DNA of 64,000 nt. Source: Clostridiaceae bacterium (GTDB taxonomy: Bacteria > Bacillota > Clostridia > CAYPLH01 > DUMO01). The stretch lies in the NCBI GenBank assembly GCA_012839865.1, contig DUMO01000051.1:62001-126000 (forward strand), read 5' to 3'. The notes beneath the pieces are model-generated. The model searched no databases. It saw nothing but the letters and a program-made list of their open reading frames with translations, and was not told the DNA's origin. Positions 582 to 48,317 of this stretch are shown here, one piece after another (position 1 is the stretch's first letter; each line of letters begins with the position of its first letter). Made by a program: the position numbers and the translations under genes.

Positions 582-1457
582 TTGGACGGGCAGAGCAGAA
601 TCTGTAATTATTGCAAGGAGGCTATTGATGTAAATTTAAGACGATGCCCATATTGCGGAAGCCTTCTTCGTAACACCGCAAAAGAAGGTGATGGGGATTT
701 TTCTTTTAACGATAAAGTTGACATAAGCTTTGGAAATTTAAAATATGTTGAAAATATCAAAGGTGAAAGAGATGCCGAAAGAGTCGAAAGTGATGCTCAA
801 AGTACTGAAAAAATCAAATACGAAAGCACAGTCGGCATTATAGAGGAAACAGCAGGAGAGGTAAGCCTGGAGGTTGCACCTGATTCTGAAAATGCAACTG
901 ATCATGACAGCAGCGCACTTTTATCAGACCCAATAATCATTTCAGCGGAAACTTTTGATATGGAAAATTCCAAACCGGACATTGATATAAAAGATGATGA
1001 GCCTCAGGCCGGAAGTGCTTTTAAAACCGATGAATCCGAGGCTGGAAGCGTTAAAAAACCTCACGAACTTACGACCGGCAATGCCATAAAAACCGATGAA
1101 CCCCAAACAGGCAGCGTTGTTCAGGATGAATACAGCACAGCAAGGCATGAGCCAACTGCTGCAAAACAACTGCATGACATGGAGCGAAGCAGGGAAGTCT
1201 ATAATCGAAAGCCTAAAAGGAAACTTGGCAATGGCATGAAAGTCTTTCTAACAGTCCTGTGCACAATCATTCCAGGTATTGGTCAGTTGGCAGGTGTCAT
1301 TATCGGAATCGCTTTTATGGCTGCCGAGGATGATGATGACAGCAGAACCTTCGGGACGGCTTTAATGATAGCAAGCGTGATCATGTTTTTTATTTCATGT
1401 GTTTTTTATGCCATCCTGTCCATTCTTTTGGTGAACTATAACGTTTTTGGATGGTGA
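582..1457 (+). CDS. Zinc-ribbon protein with C-terminal membrane segments
   Basis: About 291 aa starting at TTG with AAGGGGG just upstream. The N-terminus has a zinc ribbon (CNYCKEA then CPYCGSLL). The middle is long, acidic and probably disordered, and contains short degenerate repeats around KTDEPQTGS and KTDESEAGS (roughly residues 135-180). The last ~75 residues hold two hydrophobic segments separated by an acidic AEDDDDS loop, so the protein is probably membrane-anchored with a cytoplasmic zinc ribbon. It ends four bases before the likely start of the next gene. No specific function can be assigned. Confidence 0.7.
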   Translation: MDGQSRICNYCKEAIDVNLRRCPYCGSLLRNTAKEGDGDFSFNDKVDISFGNLKYVENIKGERDAERVESDAQSTEKIKYESTVGIIEETAGEVSLEVAPDSENATDHDSSALLSDPIIISAETFDMENSKPDIDIKDDEPQAGSAFKTDESEAGSVKKPHELTTGNAIKTDEPQTGSVVQDEYSTARHEPTAAKQLHDMERSREVYNRKPKRKLGNGMKVFLTVLCTIIPGIGQLAGVIIGIAFMAAEDDDDSRTFGTALMIASVIMFFISCVFYAILSILLVNYNVFGW

Positions 1458-1461
1458 TAAT

Positions 1462-2037
1462 TTGTATAGCGAGAAACAAAAAATACGAAAGCAGATGCTC
1501 TTGTTAAGGGACGGCATGACCCGGGAAGAGGTGGAGTTTCTCAGCAAAGAAATAATTGACAGAGTTTATTCAATGCAACAGTTTAAAGAAAGCAATCTTA
1601 TTATGTCATATGTAAACTTCAGAAATGAAGTCAAGACTGTTGATTTTATTGATAAATGCATTTCTTTGGGCAAGAAGGTTGCTGTTCCGAAAATTGTTGA
1701 TACCGGAGAAAAAAGACAGGAAATTATTGCGGTACAAATAACCGGAGTCAGTCACCTTGCAAAAGGAAAGTTTGGAATATTGGAGCCCGGTGAAAAGAAT
1801 TTAGCTGTGATTGACCCGTCATGTCTGGATTTTATTGTTGTTCCGGGTATCGCCTTTGATTTGAACAAAAACCGTTTGGGCTTCGGCAAAGGGTTCTATG
1901 ACAGGTTCCTGTCCCGCACAAACACCAGGTGCATTAAAGTTGGTCTGGCATACGAAATGCAAATAATCGAAAGTCTACCCTTCTCACATTATGATATACC
2001 TTTGGATTTTGTTGTAACAGAAAAAAGAATGCTATAG
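1462..2037 (+). CDS. 5-formyltetrahydrofolate cyclo-ligase
   Basis: Converts 5-formyl-THF to 5,10-methenyl-THF with ATP, returning a storage folate to one-carbon metabolism. Family marks are a basic N-terminus (EKQKIRKQ), KKVAVPKIV, the substrate/ATP loop GFGKGFYDRFL and the C-terminal GLAYEMQ. The length (~191 aa) is normal. Frame is open from TTG 1447, but that start overlaps the previous gene; TTG 1462, four bases after the preceding stop with GGTGAT in front, looks better and gives the usual short N-terminus. Probably translationally coupled to the upstream gene. Confidence 0.85.
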   Translation: MYSEKQKIRKQMLLLRDGMTREEVEFLSKEIIDRVYSMQQFKESNLIMSYVNFRNEVKTVDFIDKCISLGKKVAVPKIVDTGEKRQEIIAVQITGVSHLAKGKFGILEPGEKNLAVIDPSCLDFIVVPGIAFDLNKNRLGFGKGFYDRFLSRTNTRCIKVGLAYEMQIIESLPFSHYDIPLDFVVTEKRML

Positions 2038-2046
2038 CTTTTATTA

Positions 2047-2997
2047 ATGGAGGCAGTGTTGAAGCAAAAGTTATCGGTAGTCGGAGCCAATTTGGTTTTT
2101 GCCGCAATTGTAACAGGTTATTTTGTTTTTGAAATAATCCTGGTTATACTCAGAATATTGCTTGAAAGAGTCTATGGCAGTGAATTTGTTAAATTTACGG
2201 TAATGGATAATTTATACTATACAACGCTGGCTCAGTTTATTTTATTGCTTTTTCCGGTTCTTTTTTACTCATTTGCAAGAAATAATGATATTCTGAAAGT
2301 TTTCAGGCTAAACAAGTTGAAGTTCTCACACATAGTTATAGTTGCCCTTGTTTCAATTCCTGCCTGTTTTGCGGCAAAAGCATTGAATACAATAAATTTA
2401 TATATGCTTCAACCCTTTGTTGATATTCCGGAAGTCTACCTGCCGGTTCCAGGGAATATTTCGGAGTTGTTGGTTGTGATATTTACCATAGCTGTCACTC
2501 CTGCCATATGCGAAGAATTTCTTTTCAGAGGGCTTATGCTCAGTTCATATGAAATCAGGGGTTCAATGAGAGCCGTGGTCATAACCTCCATTATGTTTGC
2601 AATTTACCACTTTGACATAACCAATGTTGCAGGTACAATTTTCTCAGGAATTTTATTCGGATATATGGTGCTTCGGACCAACTCCCTTTATTCAGCTGTA
2701 ATTGCCCATTTCATCAATAATACCATTGCTGAATTATTAATATACAGGAGCGGAATTGAATACCCGGTGCCTGTTGTTGTTTCAGTTTTGGATTTTAAAT
2801 ATTCATTATATTATCTTCTGGTCAGTCTCTTTTTGATATTTTTCTTAATGAAACTGCTGGTCAAAGTCACACAGGGAGTTTACACTCCAAAACCTCCTAT
2901 CGCCCGGATCAGGGATGACTTTATTTCCGTTTTGTCCCATTGGCCAATTATACTGGTTCTCTTCTTATACATAGCCACAATACATATTTTTTATTGA
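2047..2997 (+). CDS. CPBP family intramembrane metalloprotease
   Basis: A 316 aa polytopic membrane protein of the CPBP/Abi family (prenyl-protein protease-like). The conserved core is visible: the EExxxR motif in CEEFLFRGLM, a Phe/His segment IYHFD, and AHFINN, which carries the third metal ligand. At least seven hydrophobic segments are apparent. Family members cleave membrane substrates, or in Firmicutes sometimes protect against bacteriocins; the substrate here is unknown. It starts ten bases after the cyclo-ligase, so it probably belongs to the same transcript. Confidence 0.8.
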   Translation: MEAVLKQKLSVVGANLVFAAIVTGYFVFEIILVILRILLERVYGSEFVKFTVMDNLYYTTLAQFILLLFPVLFYSFARNNDILKVFRLNKLKFSHIVIVALVSIPACFAAKALNTINLYMLQPFVDIPEVYLPVPGNISELLVVIFTIAVTPAICEEFLFRGLMLSSYEIRGSMRAVVITSIMFAIYHFDITNVAGTIFSGILFGYMVLRTNSLYSAVIAHFINNTIAELLIYRSGIEYPVPVVVSVLDFKYSLYYLLVSLFLIFFLMKLLVKVTQGVYTPKPPIARIRDDFISVLSHWPIILVLFLYIATIHIFY

Positions 2998-3058: not shown

Positions 3059-3080
3059 ATCTTTTGTGAGGTGAATTGGC

Positions 3081-4199
3081 TTGATTGATGCTAAGTCATA
3101 TTCAGCTAATCGTGATACTTGCAACAAACTCAGGCAAGCACTGGATATACTCACAATGAACTCCCATGAATTAATATCATACATTGAAGATCAATTGAAA
3201 AAATACCTGGTTTCTGAATTTTTCATATCCAACGAAGCAAACAGCATCAATATACGGGGACAAAGAAATAAATACAATCCTGCAGGTTTAAGGAAAGAAA
3301 TTGAGGACTTCAATGAAGAAAGTGAGGCACAACTCCCGAAATATTTCCATAATGGCAAATTTTTAAGGGATTACTTATATTTTCAGTTGCACACGTCAAT
3401 GCTGAATAAAAAGGAAATGCTGATCGGTGAATATATAATTGATAATATAGATGAAAACGGATATCTGACAACCAATTTGGAAAAAATTTCAGTTTTGTTT
3501 CAGATACCGGTGGATAGAGTTGAAAAAGTCCTTTTTGTAATTCATACCTTCGACCCCCCTGGAATTTGCGCCAGAAATCTTGAAGAGTGCCTTCTCATTC
3601 AGCTTAATCAAAACGGAATACATGATTCGGATGTCCAAAAAGCCATAAAATATCATCTTGATGATTTTGCCTGGCTAGATGCAGAGGAAATTTCAAAAAA
3701 AATGGGTATAAGTCAAAGCAGGGTGGAGGAAATACTGAAAATCATAAAAGGGCTCGAACCTAAACCGGGAAGGGCATTTTTCAATAATAATGAAATCAAT
3801 TACATAATTCCTGACATTCTGATTGAGAAATCAGATAAAAAATTTAAAGTCAGGTTAAACAGAGACTCCCTGCCGTCGGTGGATATTAACTACCTTAGAA
3901 ACAAAATGAATGATTCGGTGCAAATGCTCCGTATTTCCGCCAAAGATTATGAAGACAGCATCTTATGGCTGGCAAAATGTATTGAAAACAGAGTTAAAAT
4001 ATTAATGAAAATCACTCATTACATAGTTAAGAACAGTCAGGACTTCTTCTTATACGGGAAGAATCATTTCACGAGAATATCCATTGATAAAGCTGAAAAA
4101 GACCTGAAAATAAAGCGCAGCATCATAAAAAGAGTAGTAAAAAACAAATATTTAAAATGCAGCTTCGGAATTTATGAAATAAGTAAATTTTTCTATTAG
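3081..4199 (+). CDS. Sigma-54 (RpoN)-like protein lacking the RpoN box
   Basis: About 372 aa related to RNA polymerase sigma-54. Visible parts in order: a short region-I-like helix (LRQALDILTMNSHELISYI), an acidic linker, the core-binding domain with signature blocks (ENGYLT, FDPPGICARNLEECLL, LEPKPGRAF, YIIPDILI) and the start of the DNA-binding region through the helix-turn-helix (HFTRISIDKAEKDL to FGIYEISKFF). Family members continue for ~80-100 residues to the RpoN box, which reads the -24 element. Here the stop comes immediately after the IYEISKFF segment and no RpoN box follows in any frame before the convergent gene at 4246. It could bind core polymerase without normal promoter recognition, or be a decayed or specialised paralogue. 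Confidence 0.75.
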   Translation: MIDAKSYSANRDTCNKLRQALDILTMNSHELISYIEDQLKKYLVSEFFISNEANSINIRGQRNKYNPAGLRKEIEDFNEESEAQLPKYFHNGKFLRDYLYFQLHTSMLNKKEMLIGEYIIDNIDENGYLTTNLEKISVLFQIPVDRVEKVLFVIHTFDPPGICARNLEECLLIQLNQNGIHDSDVQKAIKYHLDDFAWLDAEEISKKMGISQSRVEEILKIIKGLEPKPGRAFFNNNEINYIIPDILIEKSDKKFKVRLNRDSLPSVDINYLRNKMNDSVQMLRISAKDYEDSILWLAKCIENRVKILMKITHYIVKNSQDFFLYGKNHFTRISIDKAEKDLKIKRSIIKRVVKNKYLKCSFGIYEISKFFY

Positions 4200-4245: not shown

Positions 4246-4551
4246 TTAAAAAGGCCATTCAAAAGGTTTTTTCTGTTCTGCTCCAAGAAAGCCTGATATG
4301 CCCTGGCTTCCAAAAAACTCTCTCTCCAGATCTTTTATGCGTTCTTCAGTATAATAGTTCATTTCTCCGAGCTTTTTTACTTCATCGGCAAATTCGCGTA
4401 TTTTTTCAATTTCCCTAAATGTCAGAACAGTCTGGCAACTGTCTGAATTTAAAATACGGTTCAGCTCGGATGAATATTCATATCCATCGTCAACATCCTT
4501 ATAACCGCTTTTTAAAAAGTGTTCCAAATTTTTTGGTATTTCTCTTGGCAT
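4246..4551 (-). CDS. Small protein of unknown function
   Basis: About 101 aa from an ATG at 4551 preceded by GGGGTG; the frame is open further upstream, but that extension has no ribosome site and atypical composition. The protein is hydrophilic and helical, beginning MPREIPKNLEHFLKSG and ending in Trp-Pro-Phe. No family recognised. It converges on the sigma-54-like gene and diverges from the recombinase region. Confidence 0.5.
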   Translation of the reverse strand: MPREIPKNLEHFLKSGYKDVDDGYEYSSELNRILNSDSCQTVLTFREIEKIREFADEVKKLGEMNYYTEERIKDLEREFFGSQGISGFLGAEQKKPFEWPF

Positions 4552-4847: not shown

Positions 4848-5003
4848 ATGCCGGCAAAAAACAGGAAGGTAATTGTAACATACGGTAAAGATAAGAATAC
4901 CCTACAGGTTTTATACAGGCTGCTGCATGTTTTCACAAAGGCAAACGCTGATAAATACAATGATTTGAGGGGTAGGAATGTTTTTGGAAAAAAGCAGGGC
5001 TGA
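4848..5003 (+). CDS. 51-aa ORF overlapping the recombinase start
   Basis: An ATG with GGTGAG upstream opens 51 codons beginning MPAKNRKVIVTYG and ending KKQG. The product is basic. Its 3' end overlaps the first 26 bases of the serine recombinase in another frame, an arrangement that suggests translational coupling. It is too short for ordinary gene callers. No family recognised; possibly a recombinase accessory factor by position only. Confidence 0.45.
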   Translation: MPAKNRKVIVTYGKDKNTLQVLYRLLHVFTKANADKYNDLRGRNVFGKKQG

Positions 5004-6528
5004 TTATAGAATTGCAATTTATGTTCGTGAGAGCAGGGATGAGGACGGGGAAAACTTTGAAACCATTGAAACCCAAAGGGATCTGCTTATAGATTTTGTA
5101 AGCCGCAATAATCTGGGAAACATCCATAAAATTTACATGGATGACAATGTATCAGGGGCTGGATTTGAAAGGGAAGGCCTTAAAGAGCTGAAACAGGACA
5201 TTGAGAACGGATTTGTAAATCTTGTGGTTATAAAGGATTTATCAAGACTTGGCCGTAATAATGCCCAGACACTGCTTTTTCTTGATTACCTGGAAGAGCA
5301 GGGAGTAAGGGTTATTTCCAGCGACGGCCGGTATGACAGCGAAAAGGACAACGAAACAGTGGGAATTGAAACTTGGTATAATGAGCGTTTCTTGAGAGAT
5401 ATTTCCAGAAAGGTAAGGGCAAACCTGCTTCACAAGATAAACAGGGGAGAATATCTGGGCAGTGCCCCCTTCGGATATAAAAAATCTGAAAAAAGGAAAA
5501 ATCATTTGTGCATTGATGAGTCCACTGCATATATAGTAAGGGAAATATTTGAACTGTATAAAAAAGGTTTTGGCTATTCAGCCATTTCAAAAATACTCAA
5601 CGATAAAGGATATCCCTCACCATCCTCCCGCAACGGTGTTAAGGGAGGAAAATGGAATCATGTTGCCGTCCGGAGGATATTGTGCAACAGGGTGTATATT
5701 GGAGACACGGTTCAGAGGGTAAGCGAAAAAATCAGCTTTAAAAGCAAAAAAACAAGGCGCTTGCCGGAAAAAATGTGGGTCATAACCGAGAAGACCCATG
5801 AACCTGTAATTGATTCAGACACTTTTTACGAAGTTCAAAAAATCAGACAGGGCAGGAAAAAGGGGGCAGGCAACCACAAAGGCACCCTGCATGTCTTTAA
5901 AGGGCTGTTGTATTGCGGAAGGTGCTCAAAACCTTTATTTGCAAGAAAGCGCCCGAACCGCCCCATGGGCTATATATGCAGCAATTATTTGAAAAATGGC
6001 AGTAAGAACTGCACAAGCCATTATGTCAATGAAGAAAAACTTATTGAAACAATTGCAGGAGATCTTGTTTGTGCTTATCAAAAGGAAGACCGGAAAGAAG
6101 TGTTGTTAAACCTGTTATCTGAAGAAATGGGGAAGGGTCAGGAGAACAGTGCAAAAATCAGGCAACTTCGAAAAAATCTTGAAAACAGGATTAAACAACA
6201 GGATGTTTTATATATGGATAAGCTTGAGGGAAATATATCAAGTGAACTTTTTGAAAGAACCAACAGCTACCTGGAGAGTGTTATAAAGTCCCTTCGAAAA
6301 ACTATTGCTGAGTTGGAAAACACGCAGAGCAGCAAATTCATTGAGGCTCCGGAGATTTTCGATGATTTTATAGATAGTCTGAAAAAGGGAAACCTGACAT
6401 ATCATATGGCTCAAACCCTTATTACGAAAATAACGGTTTATGATCCGGGCGATATTTTGCCTGAAGGTGTTGAAACCGGAAATAGTGGTACAGGTCTGCT
6501 GCATATAACTTATATTTGTAAACTATAG
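4978..6528 (+). CDS. Large serine recombinase (resolvase/integrase family)
   Basis: A 516 aa site-specific recombinase. The N-terminal resolvase domain has the nucleophile Ser19 in YVRESRDEDG, an Arg-rich active-site segment IKDLSRLGRN and ISRKVRANL before the long helix. The recombinase domain (GSAPFGYKK, IVREIFELY, W-N-H-V-A-V-R-R-I-L) follows, then a zinc ribbon (YCGRC, YICSNYLKNG, CTSHYV) and a coiled-coil-rich C-terminus. This layout matches phage integrases and TnpX/SpoIVCA-like excisionases that join att sites. GGGGTAGGA lies before ATG 4978. No capsid, plasmid or transposon genes are near and no att sites are evident, so it may be a remnant or act on distant sites. Confidence 0.9.
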   Translation: MFLEKSRADYRIAIYVRESRDEDGENFETIETQRDLLIDFVSRNNLGNIHKIYMDDNVSGAGFEREGLKELKQDIENGFVNLVVIKDLSRLGRNNAQTLLFLDYLEEQGVRVISSDGRYDSEKDNETVGIETWYNERFLRDISRKVRANLLHKINRGEYLGSAPFGYKKSEKRKNHLCIDESTAYIVREIFELYKKGFGYSAISKILNDKGYPSPSSRNGVKGGKWNHVAVRRILCNRVYIGDTVQRVSEKISFKSKKTRRLPEKMWVITEKTHEPVIDSDTFYEVQKIRQGRKKGAGNHKGTLHVFKGLLYCGRCSKPLFARKRPNRPMGYICSNYLKNGSKNCTSHYVNEEKLIETIAGDLVCAYQKEDRKEVLLNLLSEEMGKGQENSAKIRQLRKNLENRIKQQDVLYMDKLEGNISSELFERTNSYLESVIKSLRKTIAELENTQSSKFIEAPEIFDDFIDSLKKGNLTYHMAQTLITKITVYDPGDILPEGVETGNSGTGLLHITYICKL

Positions 6529-7059: not shown

Positions 7060-8277
7060 ATGAACACCAAATATGTTGTGCTGTTAGGTGACGGAATGGC
7101 AGATTATCCCATTCCGGAACTGGATAATAAAACACCTCTTCAAGCAGCTTGCAAGCCCAATATGGACAGTCTGGCTGCAAAATCCCTTGTGGGACTGGTG
7201 AAAACTGTCCCGGAAGGGTTGCCGCCTGCAAGTGATGTGGCCAATTTGTCTGTTTTCGGCTATGACCCGAAGAAGCATTATACCGGCCGTTCACCTATTG
7301 AAGCCATCAGCATGGGGGTTAACCTTGCCGATGATGAGGTTGCATTCAGGTGCAATCTTGTAACGTTAACGGAAAACGAGCCATATGAAAGCAAAATTAT
7401 AACCGATCACAGCTCGGATGAAATTACCACCGGTGAAGCTGTTGAGCTTATTAAGGCTGTAAAAAGCCACTTTGAGACAAAGGACTTGAGATTTTACACC
7501 GGAATCAGCTACAGGCATTGCATGGTGTGGAAGAAAGAGAATCCGGACCTGAGGCTCACACCGCCCCATGATATTTTGGGGAAAAAGATAACTGATTTTT
7601 TACCATCAGGGAAGGATGCCCGGATTATCAGAAAAATGATGGAGGAAAGCTTTAATTTTCTGAACTCCCATAATATCAACACCGAGAGAAGAAAACGGGG
7701 ACTAAAACCGGCCAACTCCATTTGGCTTTGGGGGCAGGGAAAGAAACCTTCACTGCCGCTTTTCAGCGAGAAATTTAAAAAAACAGGCTCTGTAATTTCA
7801 GCGGTGGATCTAATAAAGGGGATAGGGATATGTGCCGGTTTGACAGCTGTTGATGTGCCCGGTGCAACCGGAAATATTCACACAAACTTTGAAGGAAAGG
7901 CAGAGGCGGCTTTAAAGGAGCTTCAATCGGGAAAGGATTTCGTATATATACACGTAGAAGCGCCTGATGAGTGCGGACACCGCTTTGAAATGGAGAATAA
8001 AATAAAATCAATAGAGTTGATAGATAAACTGGTTCTGGGGACACTCTTAAAAGGACTTGAGAAATTTGACAGTTACAAAATTATGATTCTTCCCGACCAT
8101 CCAACGCCGCTTTCCCTCAGAACCCATACAGCCGACCCTGTACCATTCATAATTTATGACAATTTAGTTGCGGCAGAGTCCGGCGTCAGCAGCTTTAATG
8201 AAACCGAAGTCAGGGAAAAAGGCATTTTTATAGAAAACGGACATGAACTCATGGAAATTTTTTTGGCTGCCAAATAG
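7060..8277 (+). CDS. apgM: 2,3-bisphosphoglycerate-independent phosphoglycerate mutase, archaeal type
   Basis: A 405 aa alkaline-phosphatase-superfamily enzyme that interconverts 3- and 2-phosphoglycerate in glycolysis through a phosphoserine intermediate. It is the short archaeal-type (ApgM) form rather than the ~510 aa GpmI. Visible marks: metal-binding LLGDGMADYP (Asp11), the serine nucleophile in PPASDVANLS (about Ser58), GRSPIEA, APDECGHR and the C-terminal metal motif ILPDHPTP followed by RTHTADPVPF. ATG 7060 follows AAGGA. Neighbours are not glycolytic. Confidence 0.92.
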   Translation: MNTKYVVLLGDGMADYPIPELDNKTPLQAACKPNMDSLAAKSLVGLVKTVPEGLPPASDVANLSVFGYDPKKHYTGRSPIEAISMGVNLADDEVAFRCNLVTLTENEPYESKIITDHSSDEITTGEAVELIKAVKSHFETKDLRFYTGISYRHCMVWKKENPDLRLTPPHDILGKKITDFLPSGKDARIIRKMMEESFNFLNSHNINTERRKRGLKPANSIWLWGQGKKPSLPLFSEKFKKTGSVISAVDLIKGIGICAGLTAVDVPGATGNIHTNFEGKAEAALKELQSGKDFVYIHVEAPDECGHRFEMENKIKSIELIDKLVLGTLLKGLEKFDSYKIMILPDHPTPLSLRTHTADPVPFIIYDNLVAAESGVSSFNETEVREKGIFIENGHELMEIFLAAK

Positions 8278-39263: not shown

Positions 39264-42200
39264 ATGTTTAAAAAAGTAGTTTATTCTTCACCTATGTTGA
39301 TACTGCTGGCAGTTGTTTTCATATTTACTGCTTATTTTGGAGTTCCGGCTTTTAAAGCGGCAGCCGCTCCGACACATCCCTTTCTTATTGTACAGGTATC
39401 CGAATATACAGAGCTTCAAAACCGTGCACAAAGACAGCCCTGGTCTTCCATGAGATCCTCTGCTATTTCGGATGCAAACAGCCTTACCTTTAATACCGGT
39501 TCAGGTTATACTCAAAGGTGCGAGCGCATGAGAGAAATAATGGAATCCTGCGCATTGGCATATATTCTTGATCCGGCTAACAGGACAACATATAAAAATA
39601 AAATATTGAGCACCTTAAATTATTGGAAATCAAATGTTACAGGAAATCTATACAGTGAATTAAATGGTGGAAACTGGACCTATGCAGTTCCTCCCGGAAG
39701 CGCATTTTTCGCAAGCGTAGTCGCCCTTGATATAATATATCCGGATCTTACCTCCAATGAGCGGACAAATGCAGAAAGCATACTGGGAACCGTCGGGAAA
39801 TGGTTTTATGACAATCACATGAACTGGACCGAAGCCATGTGGGGTGCCCGCGGCATCTGGATGCTCTATACAGGTGCAACCTCCATAAGCGTATATGATA
39901 ATTCCCAGGGCAAACACGTTACCGTAACCAAGCAGGACGTAATAAACAGATATCTGAACGCTGTAAAAAGCTATATAACAAATGACGGTGTAGGTCTTAT
40001 AGGTCCCGGATATACAGGTGCACGATTTGCCTCTGACAGGCATCAAAAGCAGTATTTCATGGATGTCCTGGATTACACAGAAAACGCCAATGTTTATGAT
40101 GACTCTAAAATTAAAAGTTTTTATGAATGGTTTTACGGTTATGCTTCAACTGCTTTCAAACGGTACTGGGTATTTGGAGACTCCCCGTATAACAATTCTT
40201 ATGTATTGAGGTCATCAATCTGGAAAACAGACAACTTCTCAAATAATGCCGGAAAATATGCTGCCTGGGCTTTGGGAAGCTACATTGCTCCAGGACGGTT
40301 GTTCAATTATGTTCTTCACCGTTCAGACTTCCCGACGGCTGAAAGAGCTGAAAGCAAAATATTCCCCGAGGGTGGAGCATATTTGTTTGAAGATACTTCT
40401 TCATCCAATGCTCTGGACCTTGTTTTATGGAATACCACAGACGATGACGGACACGGACATAAAGATACAAATGCTATCAATGTTGCCGCATATGGAGAAC
40501 TTCTGCTTGTCAACTCAGGATATAACGGTTGGGCAACAAGTGCTGCAGGGTTCTCATGGACATATATTCATGACAGGGCGGTGTCAGGGAATACTGCTTT
40601 AATCAACTACACTTTCTCTGATGACTACAACCCTCCTGCAACCAATGACCATCAGCGCAAGTATGGAGCAGGCATAACCGAAGGGTTTGCATCAAGCACC
40701 TTTGGGTATGCTTCCGGAGATTCCGGCAGTGCGCTTCCAAACGGGAAACACATCCGAAATGTTGTTTCAGTGTTCCCGCAAGATTCAAAAAATGGATATT
40801 GGGTATTGTTTGATGAGATGACAGCAAATGTTCCGGGACAAACGGCACATATTGCACTGCACCCGCCGTCTGCATCATATTCCACTGTAACCAGCAAACA
40901 GGAATACAGATGGACTGTCAATAAATTCAGCAGTCATAATGTTTACCTGTCAATTTTCCTGGGAACCGAGCCTTCAACTGCCATCATAAGGAATGGGGCA
41001 ATTGCTGACTGGGGCGACTCATTTGTCGGTAAATATCTATATTCAACCTATACCACAAATAGCTCCACAGGCAAAAAGAATATTGTTACGGTATTGTTCC
41101 CCCATGACAATACCCATGCCAAGGCCACAATGTCAAGAATATCACAAAGCAATTGCACCGGTGCTTCCATTAATCTTGACGGCGGTACTACCATCGACTA
41201 TGCCCTGGAATCTGCAGGCACCGGGGATGTCACATATGGCGGCGTGACATTCAGAGGTCTTGCAACCCTTTACCGCAAAGCAAACGGTGCTGTTAATTTC
41301 TACTTTGTCAGAAAGGGCAGAGCTTTCAATGATGGCGAAACAATACGTCAGGGCTTCAGTTCAAACAGTGATATAACTGTTTATGTAAAGGATAAAACAG
41401 GTAATATTGTTTCTCCGGGAACTAATGTAACATTCTACTACCCGGGAATTCAGGGAGTAAAGATAAACGGAAATCCGTTGAGCGTTTCCTCCTCCGGTCA
41501 GAACTGGGTAACTGTCTATGTACCGGCAGGACAACATAGCCTGGAACTTACAACAGACGGCTCCAGCGGCGGTGGTGATCCGTCAGAAAATTATGTAAAT
41601 TTTGGTACTGCAAATCAGGGTACAGGTATAAATCAATACACCTACTCAAACGGCACTCCCATGACTCTTTATGGAAAACCGACAACCAACTGGGCTGTCA
41701 GTTCCGGCAGCAGTTTGTATAATGACAGGGGAGCAACAAATGCTTATGCACTGTTCAAATACGAAGGAAACCAGATAAGGTTGTACACCGAGAAAGCACC
41801 TTACTGCGGTATTATTGGCATAAGCATACTGGATGAGGATGATAACGTAATTGAAGATGAAGAGTATGTTGACCTTTATGCAGCCACTGCAGTGCAAAAT
41901 GAGCTGGTATATACAAGCAGCATACTGCCCGAAGATGTATATAAGCTTAAAATAAGGGTTACGGGCGAGGTTAACCCGCTCAATCCATACGTGTATGATG
42001 GAAACAATCCGCCAACCAATCCTTACTGGTCGGTAAACCTGTATAGTGTCTGCATTGTAGACACTGCGGAACCTACACCTCCTCCTGAACCAGTAAGAAC
42101 ATATTACGACTTTGGTGCTGAAAACCAAGGTTCCGGGGTAAATCAGTATACTTATTCCAACGGCACTCCAATGACATTGTATGGCAAGCCTACAACCAAC

Positions 42201-43148
42201 TGGGCTGTAAGTTCAGGCAGAAGCCTGTACAACGACAGGGGAGCTACTGATGCTTATGCTGTGTTCAAATTTGAAGGAAATCAGATTGAATTGTACACCG
42301 AAAAAGCTCCTTTCTGCGGAATTGTAGGCATTAGCATACTGGACGCAAATGATGCTGTTGTTGAGAGCGAGGTAAATGTTGATTTGTATGCTGCTTCCTC
42401 AACACCTGAAGCACTGGTATATACAAGTCCTCTGTTGGCAGATGGCGTTTACAAGCTCAAGGTAAGGGTTACCGGAGATGTGAATCCCCTTAATCCGTAT
42501 GTTTACGATGGACAAAATCCTCCGACAAACCCATACTGGTCAGTCAACCTGAAGAAGGTTTGCGTTGTAGATACATTCGGAGCCGCACCGACACCTACAC
42601 CGACACCGACGCCTACACCGACGCCGACTCCCACACCTACACCTGCTGTTTTCACCCCTCAGCATGATTCCTTTGTGAGAGACGGCAGTTATGCCGGTGA
42701 CAACTATGGCAACTATAATTCAATCTATGTTAAGAAGGATGCAGAAGGATACAACAGGGTGTCATATATCAAGGTTGATTTTGGCTCACTGTCGCAGTCG
42801 CAGATCACACAAGCCATGCTGAGATTATACGTCAGTGCGATAGGTTCAGATGCTACACGGACTGTAAAAGTATATGGGACTAATGATGAGAGTTGGACCG
42901 AAAGCACCATAACCTGGAATAACAGGCCTGCTCTGTCAACATACATTACTGAGCTGGCGATCCCGTCTTCAGCCCTTGACACCTGGGTTGAATTTGATGT
43001 GACAAATTACGTGAATCAACATGCAGGAACTGATAAGGTTGTATCCTTTGGCCTTATTAACGAAGGAACAGCATCATCGAATTCCCATGTACATTTTTCA
43101 AGCTCAGAGGCTGCATCAAACAAACCTGAACTGGTAATTCAACCGTAA
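39264..43148 (+). CDS. Secreted heparinase II/III-like polysaccharide lyase, multi-modular
   Basis: A 1294 aa exported protein with a signal peptide (~1-35, ending FKAAAAP). Residues ~40-400 are an alpha-toroid like alginate/heparinase-type lyases (LAYILDPANRTTYKNKIL, SDRHQKQYFMDV). Residues ~400-760 are beta-sandwich with the heparinase II/III signature GHGHKDTNAINVAAYGELLL. Two ~155-residue modules follow (~775-935, ~945-1105), each with NQYTYSNGTPMTLYGKPT and a final NPYWSVNL; then a Pro-Thr linker (~1107-1129) and a C-terminal DNRLRE/CBM96-type domain (~1132-1294; DSFVRDGSYAGDNYGNYNS). No dockerin or S-layer motifs. GGAGAG lies before ATG. The glycan target is unknown. Confidence 0.8.
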   Translation: MFKKVVYSSPMLILLAVVFIFTAYFGVPAFKAAAAPTHPFLIVQVSEYTELQNRAQRQPWSSMRSSAISDANSLTFNTGSGYTQRCERMREIMESCALAYILDPANRTTYKNKILSTLNYWKSNVTGNLYSELNGGNWTYAVPPGSAFFASVVALDIIYPDLTSNERTNAESILGTVGKWFYDNHMNWTEAMWGARGIWMLYTGATSISVYDNSQGKHVTVTKQDVINRYLNAVKSYITNDGVGLIGPGYTGARFASDRHQKQYFMDVLDYTENANVYDDSKIKSFYEWFYGYASTAFKRYWVFGDSPYNNSYVLRSSIWKTDNFSNNAGKYAAWALGSYIAPGRLFNYVLHRSDFPTAERAESKIFPEGGAYLFEDTSSSNALDLVLWNTTDDDGHGHKDTNAINVAAYGELLLVNSGYNGWATSAAGFSWTYIHDRAVSGNTALINYTFSDDYNPPATNDHQRKYGAGITEGFASSTFGYASGDSGSALPNGKHIRNVVSVFPQDSKNGYWVLFDEMTANVPGQTAHIALHPPSASYSTVTSKQEYRWTVNKFSSHNVYLSIFLGTEPSTAIIRNGAIADWGDSFVGKYLYSTYTTNSSTGKKNIVTVLFPHDNTHAKATMSRISQSNCTGASINLDGGTTIDYALESAGTGDVTYGGVTFRGLATLYRKANGAVNFYFVRKGRAFNDGETIRQGFSSNSDITVYVKDKTGNIVSPGTNVTFYYPGIQGVKINGNPLSVSSSGQNWVTVYVPAGQHSLELTTDGSSGGGDPSENYVNFGTANQGTGINQYTYSNGTPMTLYGKPTTNWAVSSGSSLYNDRGATNAYALFKYEGNQIRLYTEKAPYCGIIGISILDEDDNVIEDEEYVDLYAATAVQNELVYTSSILPEDVYKLKIRVTGEVNPLNPYVYDGNNPPTNPYWSVNLYSVCIVDTAEPTPPPEPVRTYYDFGAENQGSGVNQYTYSNGTPMTLYGKPTTNWAVSSGRSLYNDRGATDAYAVFKFEGNQIELYTEKAPFCGIVGISILDANDAVVESEVNVDLYAASSTPEALVYTSPLLADGVYKLKVRVTGDVNPLNPYVYDGQNPPTNPYWSVNLKKVCVVDTFGAAPTPTPTPTPTPTPTPTPTPAVFTPQHDSFVRDGSYAGDNYGNYNSIYVKKDAEGYNRVSYIKVDFGSLSQSQITQAMLRLYVSAIGSDATRTVKVYGTNDESWTESTITWNNRPALSTYITELAIPSSALDTWVEFDVTNYVNQHAGTDKVVSFGLINEGTASSNSHVHFSSSEAASNKPELVIQP

Positions 43149-43163
43149 CCTGTCAAATTTCAC

Positions 43164-43193
43164 AGCCTGCACGACTTTTTAGTTGTGCAGGCT
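43164..43193 (+). terminator. Hairpin after the first lyase gene
   Basis: AGCCTGCACGACT, loop TTTT, AGTTGTGCAGGCT is a 13 bp stem (one G-T pair) just after the stop. No T-run follows, so it may stabilise the 3' end or weakly terminate. The rest of the ~310 bp gap to the next gene has no convincing gene; a 29-codon ORF at 43235-43324 is doubtful. Confidence 0.55.
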
Positions 43194-43458
43194 ATGATAC
43201 GGTTTTAAAGGCTGATTATGAAAAAAGGGAGGAGGTGAAGGTTTTTAAGGCAATAAATACAAATAAGAGGGGAGTGGTTGCAAAAATTTATGTAATTGTA
43301 ATTGGCGGCAAGTATCATGCATAGGTTATACAGAGAGTATGTGCAAAGGACTTGTCTTTCAGTCTGTTATTGACCCTTCAGCTCTTTTGAAAACAGGCAA
43401 TAATTGCACAAAAACAACAAGAAATTTTAACTTACATTAAAACAGGAGGATGAACCGG

Positions 43459-46400
43459 ATGAGAAAAAAACATTCAAAACTTCAATGGCTTTAATTTTAT
43501 CTTTTGTTATTGCTGCTGCGGCTCTGTTCGGTATTCCGGCGCCAAAGAGTGAAGCAGCTTCGCACCCGTTTCTGATTGTAAACGCTTCTGAGTTTGAGGA
43601 ACTAAGGAGCCGTGCATCAGAAGAGCCATGGGCAACATTTAAAAGAACTGCAATTTCCGATGCAAAAACTCTTACTTTCAACAAAGCTGCCGGCTATGGT
43701 GACAGATGCACTTCCATGAGAGAGATTTTAGAAGCTTGCTCTCTTGCATATATTCTTGATCCTGACAATAAGGATTTATACATTGACAAGATTCTGGATG
43801 TACTTAATTACTGGAAATCCGATGTTGAAGGAAACATATTTAAAGAGCTGGACTCAACCAACTGGACCTATGCAATACCTCCCAGCGGTGCATTTTTCAG
43901 CAGTGTACTTGCCTTGGATATCATATATCCCGATCTGACGCCCGAAGAAATTGCAAATGCCGAGGCTATACTGCAAACCGTGGCTGACTGGTACTGGGCA
44001 TATGATTTCAGCTGGGCAACCGCTTTATGGGGTGTCAGGGGTATTTGGGCTATTTATAAAAATGATACTGACAAGATTGACACGACAATAAGTAATTACA
44101 ATACTTATGTAAAGATTTACATGTCATCTGATGGAGTACCGGTTACAGGCATGGGGTATGCAAATGCCAGATTCAACTCCGACAGACATGCCAAGCAGTA
44201 TTTAATGGACGTTATTTCCCATGTGGGGTATTATGACTATTACAACGATTACGTAGTAAAGAATTTCTATGAGTGCCTGTACGGTCACGGAATAACTGCA
44301 TTTAAACGCATGTGGGTATTTGGCGATACAGCTTTCAACAATACAATGTACCGCAGGTCATCCATTTACAAGGCAGGCAATTTTTCCGAAGAAGCAGCCA
44401 AATATGCAGCCTGGATACTGGAAGATTACAGCATACCAAACGGCCGCCTTTTAAACTATATACTTCATAAGCCGAATCAACCTTCAGGGGGATATGCTAC
44501 AAGCAAGATTTATCCGGACGGCGGTGCCTTCTTCTTTGAGGATACACCTTCACCAGATGGGCTCAGAATAGTTTTGTGGAATCCAAAGACCTCCGACGGC
44601 CACAGCCACAAGGAAGTAAACGCGTTAAACGCAGCGGCATATGGAGAATTCATGCTGGTTAACTCAGGTTACAACAACTGGGGTGAGGGAGCACTGGGAT
44701 TTAGCTGGAACTACATGAATAACAGGGCTGTTTCAGGAAATACAGCACTGATAGATTATACATTCACCAACGAGTATGATCCTCCTGCAAGCAACGACCA
44801 CAGATACAAACACGGAGCAGGCATAACCGAAGGATTTATTTCTGATATCCTAAGTTATGCAAGGGGGGATTCAGGCAGTGCACTTCCAAATGGAAAGCAT
44901 ATAAGAAATCTGGTTTCAATTTCACCCGATAACGCAAATAACGGTTATTGGATACTTTTTGACGAATTTACAGCAGATCAGCCTGGAAAGACAGTGCATA
45001 TCGCGCTTCATCCGCCCACAGACAGGTATGAAATAGTATATCCGGACAAGGAATACAAATGGACAATCAACAAGGTCAGCGGAAAAGATGTAAACTTAAC
45101 CGCATTCCTTGGAACCGAGCCTCTGTATACTCAAATCAGGAGCGGGGTAATAGGCAGCTATGGAAACTCCTTTGTTGGAAAATACCTGTATTCCACTTAT
45201 CCTACAGACAGTACAGGGAAGAAAAATGTTGTAACGGTACTGTTCCCCCACGACGCAAATCATAAAAAAGCTGACATGATCAGCATTTCAGGCAGCAACT
45301 ACAGTGGCGCTCTAGTATATTTGAATGATAATACTTTGGATTATGTAATGGAATCAACGGGAGTCGAGACAGTAAGTTATAATAATTTTTCATTTACAGG
45401 TACTGCTCTGGTATATCGAAATGAAAAGGGATTATCCAAACTTTACTTTGTCAAGGATGGTAAAGGTTTTGATGACGGAACCTCCTTTAAGCAGGGTTTT
45501 GCTTCGGATAATGCCGTAACTGTATATATGAATGATAAAGAAGGTAAAATTATTTCAAAGGGAGCCAATGTTACATTCTATTATCCCGGAATATCAGGAA
45601 TAAAGATTAACGGCCAGGCTGCGACACCTCAAGCGGCAGGCAGCAACTTTGTGACTGTTTATATTCCTGCGGGCACATATGATATAAGCTTGCAAAACGG
45701 CACTATGACACCCGGTGTACCGGCAATTGACATGTTGTTCTCCAACGGAAAAATTTCTCTTAGTGGAAATGCCAAAATATATGGCAATATCGGAACCAAC
45801 TCAGTTGGAAAGGACAGCGTTTCATTTAACGGAAATCCGTCAATTCAGGGCAATCTCCTTATCGGTCCGGGAGCTGACCCGAATACTGTAATTGAAGGAG
45901 CAGGCAACAAGACATTTGTAACAGGCTCTGTATCCAATTTAACACAAACTAAAGCTTATAGTATGCCTGGATTTGCCAAACTACCGGAACTTGAATACAA
46001 AGGAGATTTAATTGTCAATTCTGATTCCGCCCTGGATCAAAGCGGTTCCTATGGCAAAGTGGCCATTAAGAAGACACTTGCTGTTAATATAGGAAATGAA
46101 GACATCTATATTGCAGCAGACTCTTTTGAACTGTCGGGACAGGGTGAACTGGTTGTCAATAAACAAGGATCCGGCAAACTGATTCTGTTTGTTAAAGACA
46201 GTGCAAATATTTCAGGAGCCGGTATCAACAAGGATGGCAATCCGGATGATGTAATAATTTATTACAATGGAAGCAAGGACCTTGAGTTCAGTGGAAGCTT
46301 TAAATTATCAGCTTCTCTGGCTGCAGGAAATGCCGCTATGAAAGCAAGCGGCAACGTAAGCCTGGCAGGCAGCATGGTAATAGGAGGACCTGCCGTTGAA

Positions 46401-48317
46401 TTGAGCGGCGGCAGCAAAATTGACACAGGAATTCTTTATGCACCTTACGCAGCACTGTCACTTGAAGGAAACAGCAGTATTGCAGGTTGTGTAATCGCCA
46501 ATTCCATAAGTCTTTCAGGAAATCCCAAAATTTCGCAGAAAGATACAATAGACATTAGTTTCCTGAATGAGTTTGATTGGGGTCTTCTGCCATTGCCGAC
46601 ACCAATTCCTACACCTATACCTCCTACACCTACACCATCGCCTACACCCATTCCGTCACCTACTCCGACCCCTTCGCCTGTGCCTGATCCGTCGCCGACT
46701 CCGCTGCCCGGAGAAACCATTGAATACATCAATTTCGGCAGAACAAATCAGGGAACCGGCATTAACCAGTTTACGTTTAATAACGGAACTCCAATGACCC
46801 TGTACGGAAAAGGAACACTCAACTGGACAATAAGCGGAGGCAATACCGTATACACCGACAGGGGAGCTACAGATGCATATGTATTATTCACCTTTGATGG
46901 CACCAAGATACATCTGTTTGCTGAGAAGGCTCCATTCAGCGGTATTGCAGCCATAAGTATTCTTGATGAAAATGATAATATTGTTTATGATGAAGTGCTT
47001 GTAGATTTCTATTCGGATCCCGCCAAGAAAGATACTCTTGTTTACACAAGCCCTGAGCTTGATAGAGGTATATATAAACTTAAAGTAAGAGTTACCGGGG
47101 AAGTCAATCCGCTTAACAAGTATGTTAATGACGGAAATGACCCGCCAACTTCTCCGTATTGGTCAATCAACCTGTATAAAGTCGGAGTTGTGACAAAATC
47201 TGAAGCTACACCTCCGCCGACACCAACACCCACACCTGTGCCGGCAGAAGTATATTTTGATTTTGGTACTCCAAACCAGGGAGAAGGCATTAATAAATAT
47301 ACTTATTTCAATGGCACTCCGACCACCTTATACGGAAAAGGAACTTTAAACTGGACGGTCAGCAGCTCCAAATCAATATACAGTGACAGGGGAGCACCTG
47401 ACGCATATGTATTGTTCACCTTCCAGGGCAAGAAAATTGACCTATATGCTCAAAATGCCCCCTTTAGCGGTATTGTGGCAATCAGCATATTGGATCAGGA
47501 CAACAATGTAATAGTTCCCGAACAGAATGTTGATTTATACGCCGCGGCAAACACATTAGATGTTCTGGTTTATGAAAGCCCTGAACTGCCAGGCGGAATT
47601 TATAAACTTAAAGTCCGTGTAACAGGTGAGGTAAATCCTCTGAATGCATATGTAAATGATGGAAACGATCCTCCGGTAAACCCATACTGGTCTGTAAACC
47701 TTCAGAAGGTATGTGTTTATACCGCTCCCGAACCGACTCCGGAGCCTACACCTACTCCTACACCGACTCCGACACCAACTTCTGAACCTACACCTACTCC
47801 GGATGGTATAGTGTTCGGCACCAATCACGATTCATTTGTAAGAGACGGTGAAAGCTATGCTGATGCTAACTATGGCAACTACAATTCCGTGTATGTAAAG
47901 AAAGATGCACCCGGTTATAACCGCAAGGCGTATATCAAATTTGATTTCAGCGCACTTGCAGCAGCCGAGGTTGCAAGTGCAAAACTGAGATTGTATGTTG
48001 TCAATATCGGAACCGATGAAAACCGCAATGTAAGGCTATACGGGAATGAGGATACCAGCTGGCTTGAAAATACCATCACATGGAACAACGCTCCCGAACC
48101 GACCACTTTCATATGTGAAGTGCCGGTACCGGCTTCCGCCCTTAACACATGGGTTGAATTTGATGTAACGGATTATATAAATTCACAGCTGCCGGATAAA
48201 AAGGTTGTTTCCTTTGAACTTGTAATTGAGGATGTCCAGTCAAGTCAATGCCATGTATTTTTCGCAAGCTCGGAGGCTGAAGAAGGTTTAAGACCACAAT
48301 TGATAATCAAGCCTTAA
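43459..48317 (+). CDS. Second secreted lyase-like protein, frameshifted in the signal peptide
   Basis: A ~1620 aa paralogue of the preceding protein. AGGAGG precedes ATG 43459, but the frame Met-Arg-Lys-Lys ends after eleven codons; the main frame (open from before ATG 43485) is reached by one extra A in the A7 run at 43464-43470, giving a normal signal peptide MRKKTFKTSMALILSFV. Then come the same toroid and sandwich domains (SDRHAKQYLMDV; GHSHKEVNALNAAAYGE), an added ~290-residue repeat region rich in Gly-Asn (~745-1035, DUF7305/beta-helix-like), a Pro-Thr linker, two of the ~155-residue modules, a second linker and a DNRLRE-type domain. No dockerin. Confidence 0.75.

Follow-up and report, generated by a model that had tools for sequence, protein, structure and literature searches.

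The window, a stretch of 64,000 nucleotides from a Clostridiaceae bacterium, contains a gene for a short sigma-54 factor (rpoN) within a conserved group of genes. The order at the locus is Zn-ribbon protein, 5-formyltetrahydrofolate cyclo-ligase (5-FCL), CAAX protease, rpoN, small convergent gene, serine recombinase, and apgM (Table 1), and it recurs around short and full-length rpoN alike in the relatives whose loci were compared. Since the same neighbours flank both forms, the window gene corresponds by orthology to ordinary rpoN, still in the ancestral position and shortened there. At 4246 the convergent gene named in the original prediction does exist; its conserved stretch covers approximately 4246-4551 and is found again in relatives, and the encoded protein of about 101 amino acids is convergent to rpoN in 12 genomes. 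The serine recombinase adjoins rpoN in 20 genomes and looks domesticated rather than mobile. A promoter and terminator scan at the rpoN locus gave a signal no higher than that of shuffled sequences, and in the analysis of codon usage an off-frame control scored as well as the short ORF. In some of the short genes (G403 and G411) a hairpin with a T-run can be seen by eye, unscored, directly 3' of the stop codon.

Table 1. Genes and protein features at the rpoN locus (positions in the window)
Feature	Position	Strand	Remarks
5-Formyltetrahydrofolate cyclo-ligase (5-FCL)	1447..2037	+	Conserved neighbour
CAAX-protease-like (Rce1-like) membrane protein	2047..2997	+	Conserved upstream neighbour
Ribosome-binding-like stretch GTGAGGTG preceding the TTG start of rpoN	3066..3080	+	Putative, from sequence
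Short sigma-54 (rpoN) ORF	3081..4199	+	372 aa from TTG start to TAG stop; the genome's only sigma-54
Region I (AID) helices, residues 4-50	3090..3230	+	Second helix kept; Q-rich first part mostly lost
Core-binding domain (CBD), residues 91-270	3351..3890	+	31/32 conserved residues kept
Extra-long helix (ELH), residues 284-318	3930..4034	+	R304 = E. coli R336, kept
Helix-turn-helix (HTH), residues 335-353	4083..4139	+	I348 in place of T380, R346 in place of E378; R351 matches the retained R383
Closing hairpin with the truncation point, ..GIYEISKFFY before the stop	4149..4199	+	Common end of the short forms
Small convergent gene, MPREIP..WPF, ~101 aa	4246..4551	-	No Pfam family; locus marker
Serine recombinase	4978..6528	+	Same position in short- and full-form genomes
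apgM-type phosphoglycerate mutase	7060..8277	+	Conserved locus marker

Domain content of the short protein

The window protein retains the core-binding part of sigma-54 and lacks the C-terminal RpoN domain. Pfam Sigma54_CBD matches the ORF with E=2.8e-56 over profile positions 8-182 of 185, while the Sigma54_DBD match (E=1.2e-15) covers positions 8-88 of 160 only. Sigma54_AID scores 22.5 bits, slightly below its cut-off of 23.8, and TIGR02395 covers positions 10-362 of 434 with 238.7 bits, below the cut-off of 277.35. In an alignment to solved chains the last FF of the protein corresponds to residues 402-403 of the 477 residues of E. coli sigma-54, and therefore the missing part is the RpoN domain. 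The original prediction was right that the core-binding blocks are intact, that the HTH is recognisable, and that the C-terminus is absent, although the 74 residues missing relative to E. coli are a little under the 80-100 that it claimed. It also held that no RpoN box occurs before the convergent gene, and no remnant of the RpoN domain is present in any frame of the window locus, nor around any short gene examined.

Conserved residues, defined as positions with at least 85% conservation among 24 full-length proteins, are kept unevenly across the domains. The window protein keeps 31 of 32 in the CBD, 5 of 13 in the ELH, 7 of 14 in the HTH, and 3 of 8 in Region I, and the other short forms keep 6-8 of 8 in Region I and 25-32 of 32 in the CBD. 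Three HTH residues, E378, T380, and R383, read the -12 element, and only R383 is retained in the window protein. Among all short forms T380 is replaced in 15 of 15 and R383 is lost in 11 of 15; E378 and R383 of sigma-54 crosslink to promoter DNA (PMC5505868). R336, whose mutation leads to activator bypass, is retained in every short form. In the genus of G158 the HTH has a uniform new helix, HES(I/L)LDKALAGKYLQCRWG.

The AlphaFold model of the window protein (29 sequences, mean pLDDT 80.8) predicts with confidence the Region I helices, the CBD, the ELH, the complete HTH, and the closing hairpin. Because this confidence extends through the HTH and the hairpin, the product as modelled ends at a domain boundary and not within a fold. 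Foldseek matches at E <= 0.001 are exclusively sigma-54 chains, nearly all of them within RNA-polymerase complexes; their low TM-scores reflect domain arrangement.

The lost domain is not supplied from elsewhere in the genome. A Sigma54_DBD search of the assembly (2.74 Mb, 99.98% complete) matched ORF 3081-4199 alone, so a missed second rpoN was rejected; the gene is therefore not the second rpoN that the original prediction had considered, and no full-length copy accompanies it. A profile restricted to the RpoN domain had no match anywhere in the 2.74-Mb genome, which led to the rejection of a stand-alone RpoN-domain protein. In the other genomes that have only the short form, this profile gave no matches except a weak one in G403, and it detects full-length sigma-54 in both G179 and G404 as well as the RpoN domain of G260.

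Distribution and phylogeny

Sigma-54 matches are found in 103 of 391 genomes of the class, mostly with lengths of 450-490 amino acids, and in a survey of the phylum nearly all sigma-54 proteins among the matches listed are full length. The window genome is the sole one of its genus, family, and order among the genomes compared. The short form is found at the same locus in 14 genomes of one other order of the class, giving 15 with the window, and one of these (G410) is a single-contig chromosome. All matched members of the genus of G158 have it. The frame is open in 15 of 15 short forms, and those of the 14 relatives end within about 12 residues of the '..GKYxQCxWGxFExxxFF' point. Relatives do carry a full-length homologue at the locus, an outcome that the original prediction had coupled to a frameshift or assembly error; neither a frameshift nor a remnant of the RpoN box was found at the short genes.

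A tree based on the shared part of the protein places the 15 short forms together with the full-length protein of G427 in one starred clade (97/92), with Caldicoprobacter and G393, whose genome is 55% complete, outside it. Holding the 15 short forms together was not rejected (p-AU 0.11), but a single origin is unproven since G427 falls among them. G427 has no enhancer-binding protein (bEBP), and T380 and R383 are also lost; it therefore looks like an intermediate state. Alongside a full-length sigma-54 of separate derivation and a bEBP, G404 keeps a short copy, and the retention of both sigma-54 forms argues that the two are not interchangeable.

Other fates of rpoN can be seen in related genomes. 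G347, G277, and G111 have no rpoN at all, and clade members G424, G418, and G260 have lost part or most of the CBD. In-frame loss of all or part of this domain occurs at L129:7487-8182, L131:7523-8554, and L130:7611-8567 (231, 343, and 318 amino acids, respectively); the RpoN box is retained at L130 (G260) and missing from the other two. In G349 (C5:182615-183647) an rpoN copy is interrupted by several internal stops and seems to be a true pseudogene, in contrast to the intact short forms.

Selection on the short forms

Wherever a test is possible, the short gene shows purifying selection. Among four species of the genus of G158 (G411-G414), pairwise dN/dS of rpoN is 0.09-0.18 by two methods, like several neighbouring genes, and in the closest pair within the genus it is 0.12, similar to the neighbours. 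By domain the values are 0.06-0.10 for the CBD and 0.07-0.18 for the ELH-HTH. The window protein is without a close relative and its own selection is judged from conservation only; the rate of the window gene relative to relatives is 1.32, inside the neighbours' range of 1.03-1.45. The short rpoN of Caldicoprobacter is more relaxed, with dN/dS of 0.21-0.23 versus approximately 0.03-0.10 for most neighbours.

Activators and promoters

No GAFTGA enhancer-binding protein is found in any genome whose sole sigma-54 is short. In the window genome all PF00158 matches are of the Lon, Clp, or MoxR types and none has GAFTGA. PF00158 proteins of G403 and G424 were considered as bEBPs and rejected, as GAFTGA is absent. 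PF00158 proteins of 598 amino acids without GAFTGA are located at L235:2125-3918 and L236:1046-2839, and that of G403 has a SpoVT_C-like domain. By contrast with the short-only genomes, a strong PF00158 match is present in the genomes of 10 of the 12 scored full-length genes (Fisher p=2e-5, uncorrected for relatedness). The link between shortening and bEBP loss comprises few independent events, and a phylogeny-aware test of low power gave a median p of 0.5 for three independent pairs.

Strict -24/-12 sites in the window genome number 3, versus 2 for a control pattern, a comparison of weak power as full-length genomes also have few. G408 and the f53-family genomes with full-length rpoN that were read each have a single GAFTGA protein divergent from a -24/-12-like site. 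At L237-L241, in five full-length genomes, an activator of 321-339 amino acids with GAFTGA is divergent from such a site before a small unknown protein, and sigma-54 in these five genomes apparently has a one-locus regulon.

Discussion

The in-place truncation, its recurrence, the selection in relatives, the absence of activators, and the altered -12 residues suggest that a promoter-specific factor has been turned into a different kind of RNA-polymerase regulator. The preferred reading, to which we assign a probability of about one half, is that the short protein, derived from sigma-54, attaches to core RNA polymerase with neither promoter recognition nor activators and serves as a holdback or competitor factor. 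We infer core binding from the conservation of the CBD and the fold match; the inhibitory role is predicted. In sigma-54, DNA entry is blocked by Region I together with the ELH, and RNA exit by the CBD (PMC5505868, PMC7057263), and this blockade persists until remodelling by an activator (PMC7057263). The lineage has lost its GAFTGA enhancer-binding proteins, its -12 recognition helix is altered, and the -24-reading RpoN domain has been deleted cleanly at the domain boundary, with the CBD and the ELH-HTH scaffold retained. Sigma-54 keeps the cleft and the RNA exit shut before remodelling, and with no activator left the short protein would hold polymerase away from other sigma factors. Of the options in the original prediction (titration of core polymerase, a new manner of DNA binding, or a decayed gene), titration appears to fit best. 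Tentatively, the short forms may represent a class of sigma-54-derived core RNA-polymerase binders, with no -24/-12 promoter and no activator, selected as dedicated RNA-polymerase regulators.

There is real counter-evidence to the holdback reading, and it leaves room for rivals. The degraded Region I (3 of 8) weakens the lock model for the window protein specifically, and core binding is not universally kept in the clade, since G424, G418, and G260 have lost CBD sequence. The lineage keeps a sigma-54, selected where testable, without activators and without the main promoter-reading domain. If the holdback reading is true, the polymerase-locking function of sigma-54 has been separated from its promoter function, and this could be tested in a natural protein.

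The short form resembles E. coli RpoN/SigL (TIGR02395) in its CBD, ELH, HTH scaffold, part of a degraded Region I, and orthologous locus with full-length genes in relatives. It differs from ordinary sigma-54 in the absence of the RpoN domain and of GAFTGA activators, in its altered -12 helix, and, by a count of weak power, in showing no excess of strict -24/-12 sites. A 2011 survey found that sigma-54 and its activators co-occur almost perfectly, the exception being the inactive rpoN of Neisseria, a sigma-54 without activators (PMC3162934). The passages found on truncated RpoN in a 2025 survey concern Neisseria alone (PMC12316311), and a literature search that took in few subscription journals found no published description of the present short form.

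A rather unlikely alternative is an activator-independent sigma factor, in which another element is read by the altered HTH, or the upstream contact comes from a separate DNA-binding protein, and ATP-driven remodelling is no longer needed once Region I is partly lost. The strong constraint on the ELH-HTH in the genus of G158 and its uniform new helix agree with such a factor, as does the loss of the Q-rich Region I segment from the window protein; in E. coli, mutating this segment leads to activator bypass (PMC7057263). However, bypass forms require a pre-opened bubble (PMC7057263), R336 is kept in all short forms, Region I is well kept in the others, and the genome-wide profile search found no stand-alone RpoN domain.

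It is unlikely that the protein is a relic of a slowly decaying rpoN, whose promoter recognition could erode freely after the loss of the activators. Shortening does accompany bEBP loss, some relatives lack rpoN or parts of it, and decay has a known case in Neisseria, whose rpoN-like sequence (RLS) or truncated sigma-N is the closest published case: a sigma-54 variant without DNA-binding parts in genomes without GAFTGA bEBPs (PMC6755734). The Neisseria alleles, from one genus, are frameshifted, truncated, or without the HTH or RpoN box, and the protein itself went undetected (PMC6755734). In the window gene, by contrast, the HTH is present and the frame intact, and the short form is common to 15 genomes of one clade, with purifying selection where testable. 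Caldicoprobacter (G122, G003, G337) also lost the RpoN domain, independently, in genomes without bEBPs; unlike the window gene, its rpoN has a different locus, variable end points, and more relaxed selection, and is closer to decay. Simple decay, an option in the original prediction, is disfavoured by the same short form at the same locus in 14 relatives, by dN/dS of 0.09-0.18 among four species long after truncation, by open frames where a true pseudogene (G349) has internal stops, and by the ordinary rate of the window gene among its neighbours.

It is highly improbable that the short gene is an artefact of assembly or sequencing, or that the serine recombinase 0.8 kb downstream split it as in a skin-like element; the split was rejected, since the recombinase has the same conserved position beside full-length rpoN and is therefore not the cause of truncation, no second fragment with the RpoN domain exists in the genome, and the same end is seen across many assemblies, including the single-contig G410. 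Elsewhere in the window, positions 39264-48317 (+) encode two large adjacent and related secreted-looking proteins of 1294 and 1610 amino acids with PT-rich linkers.
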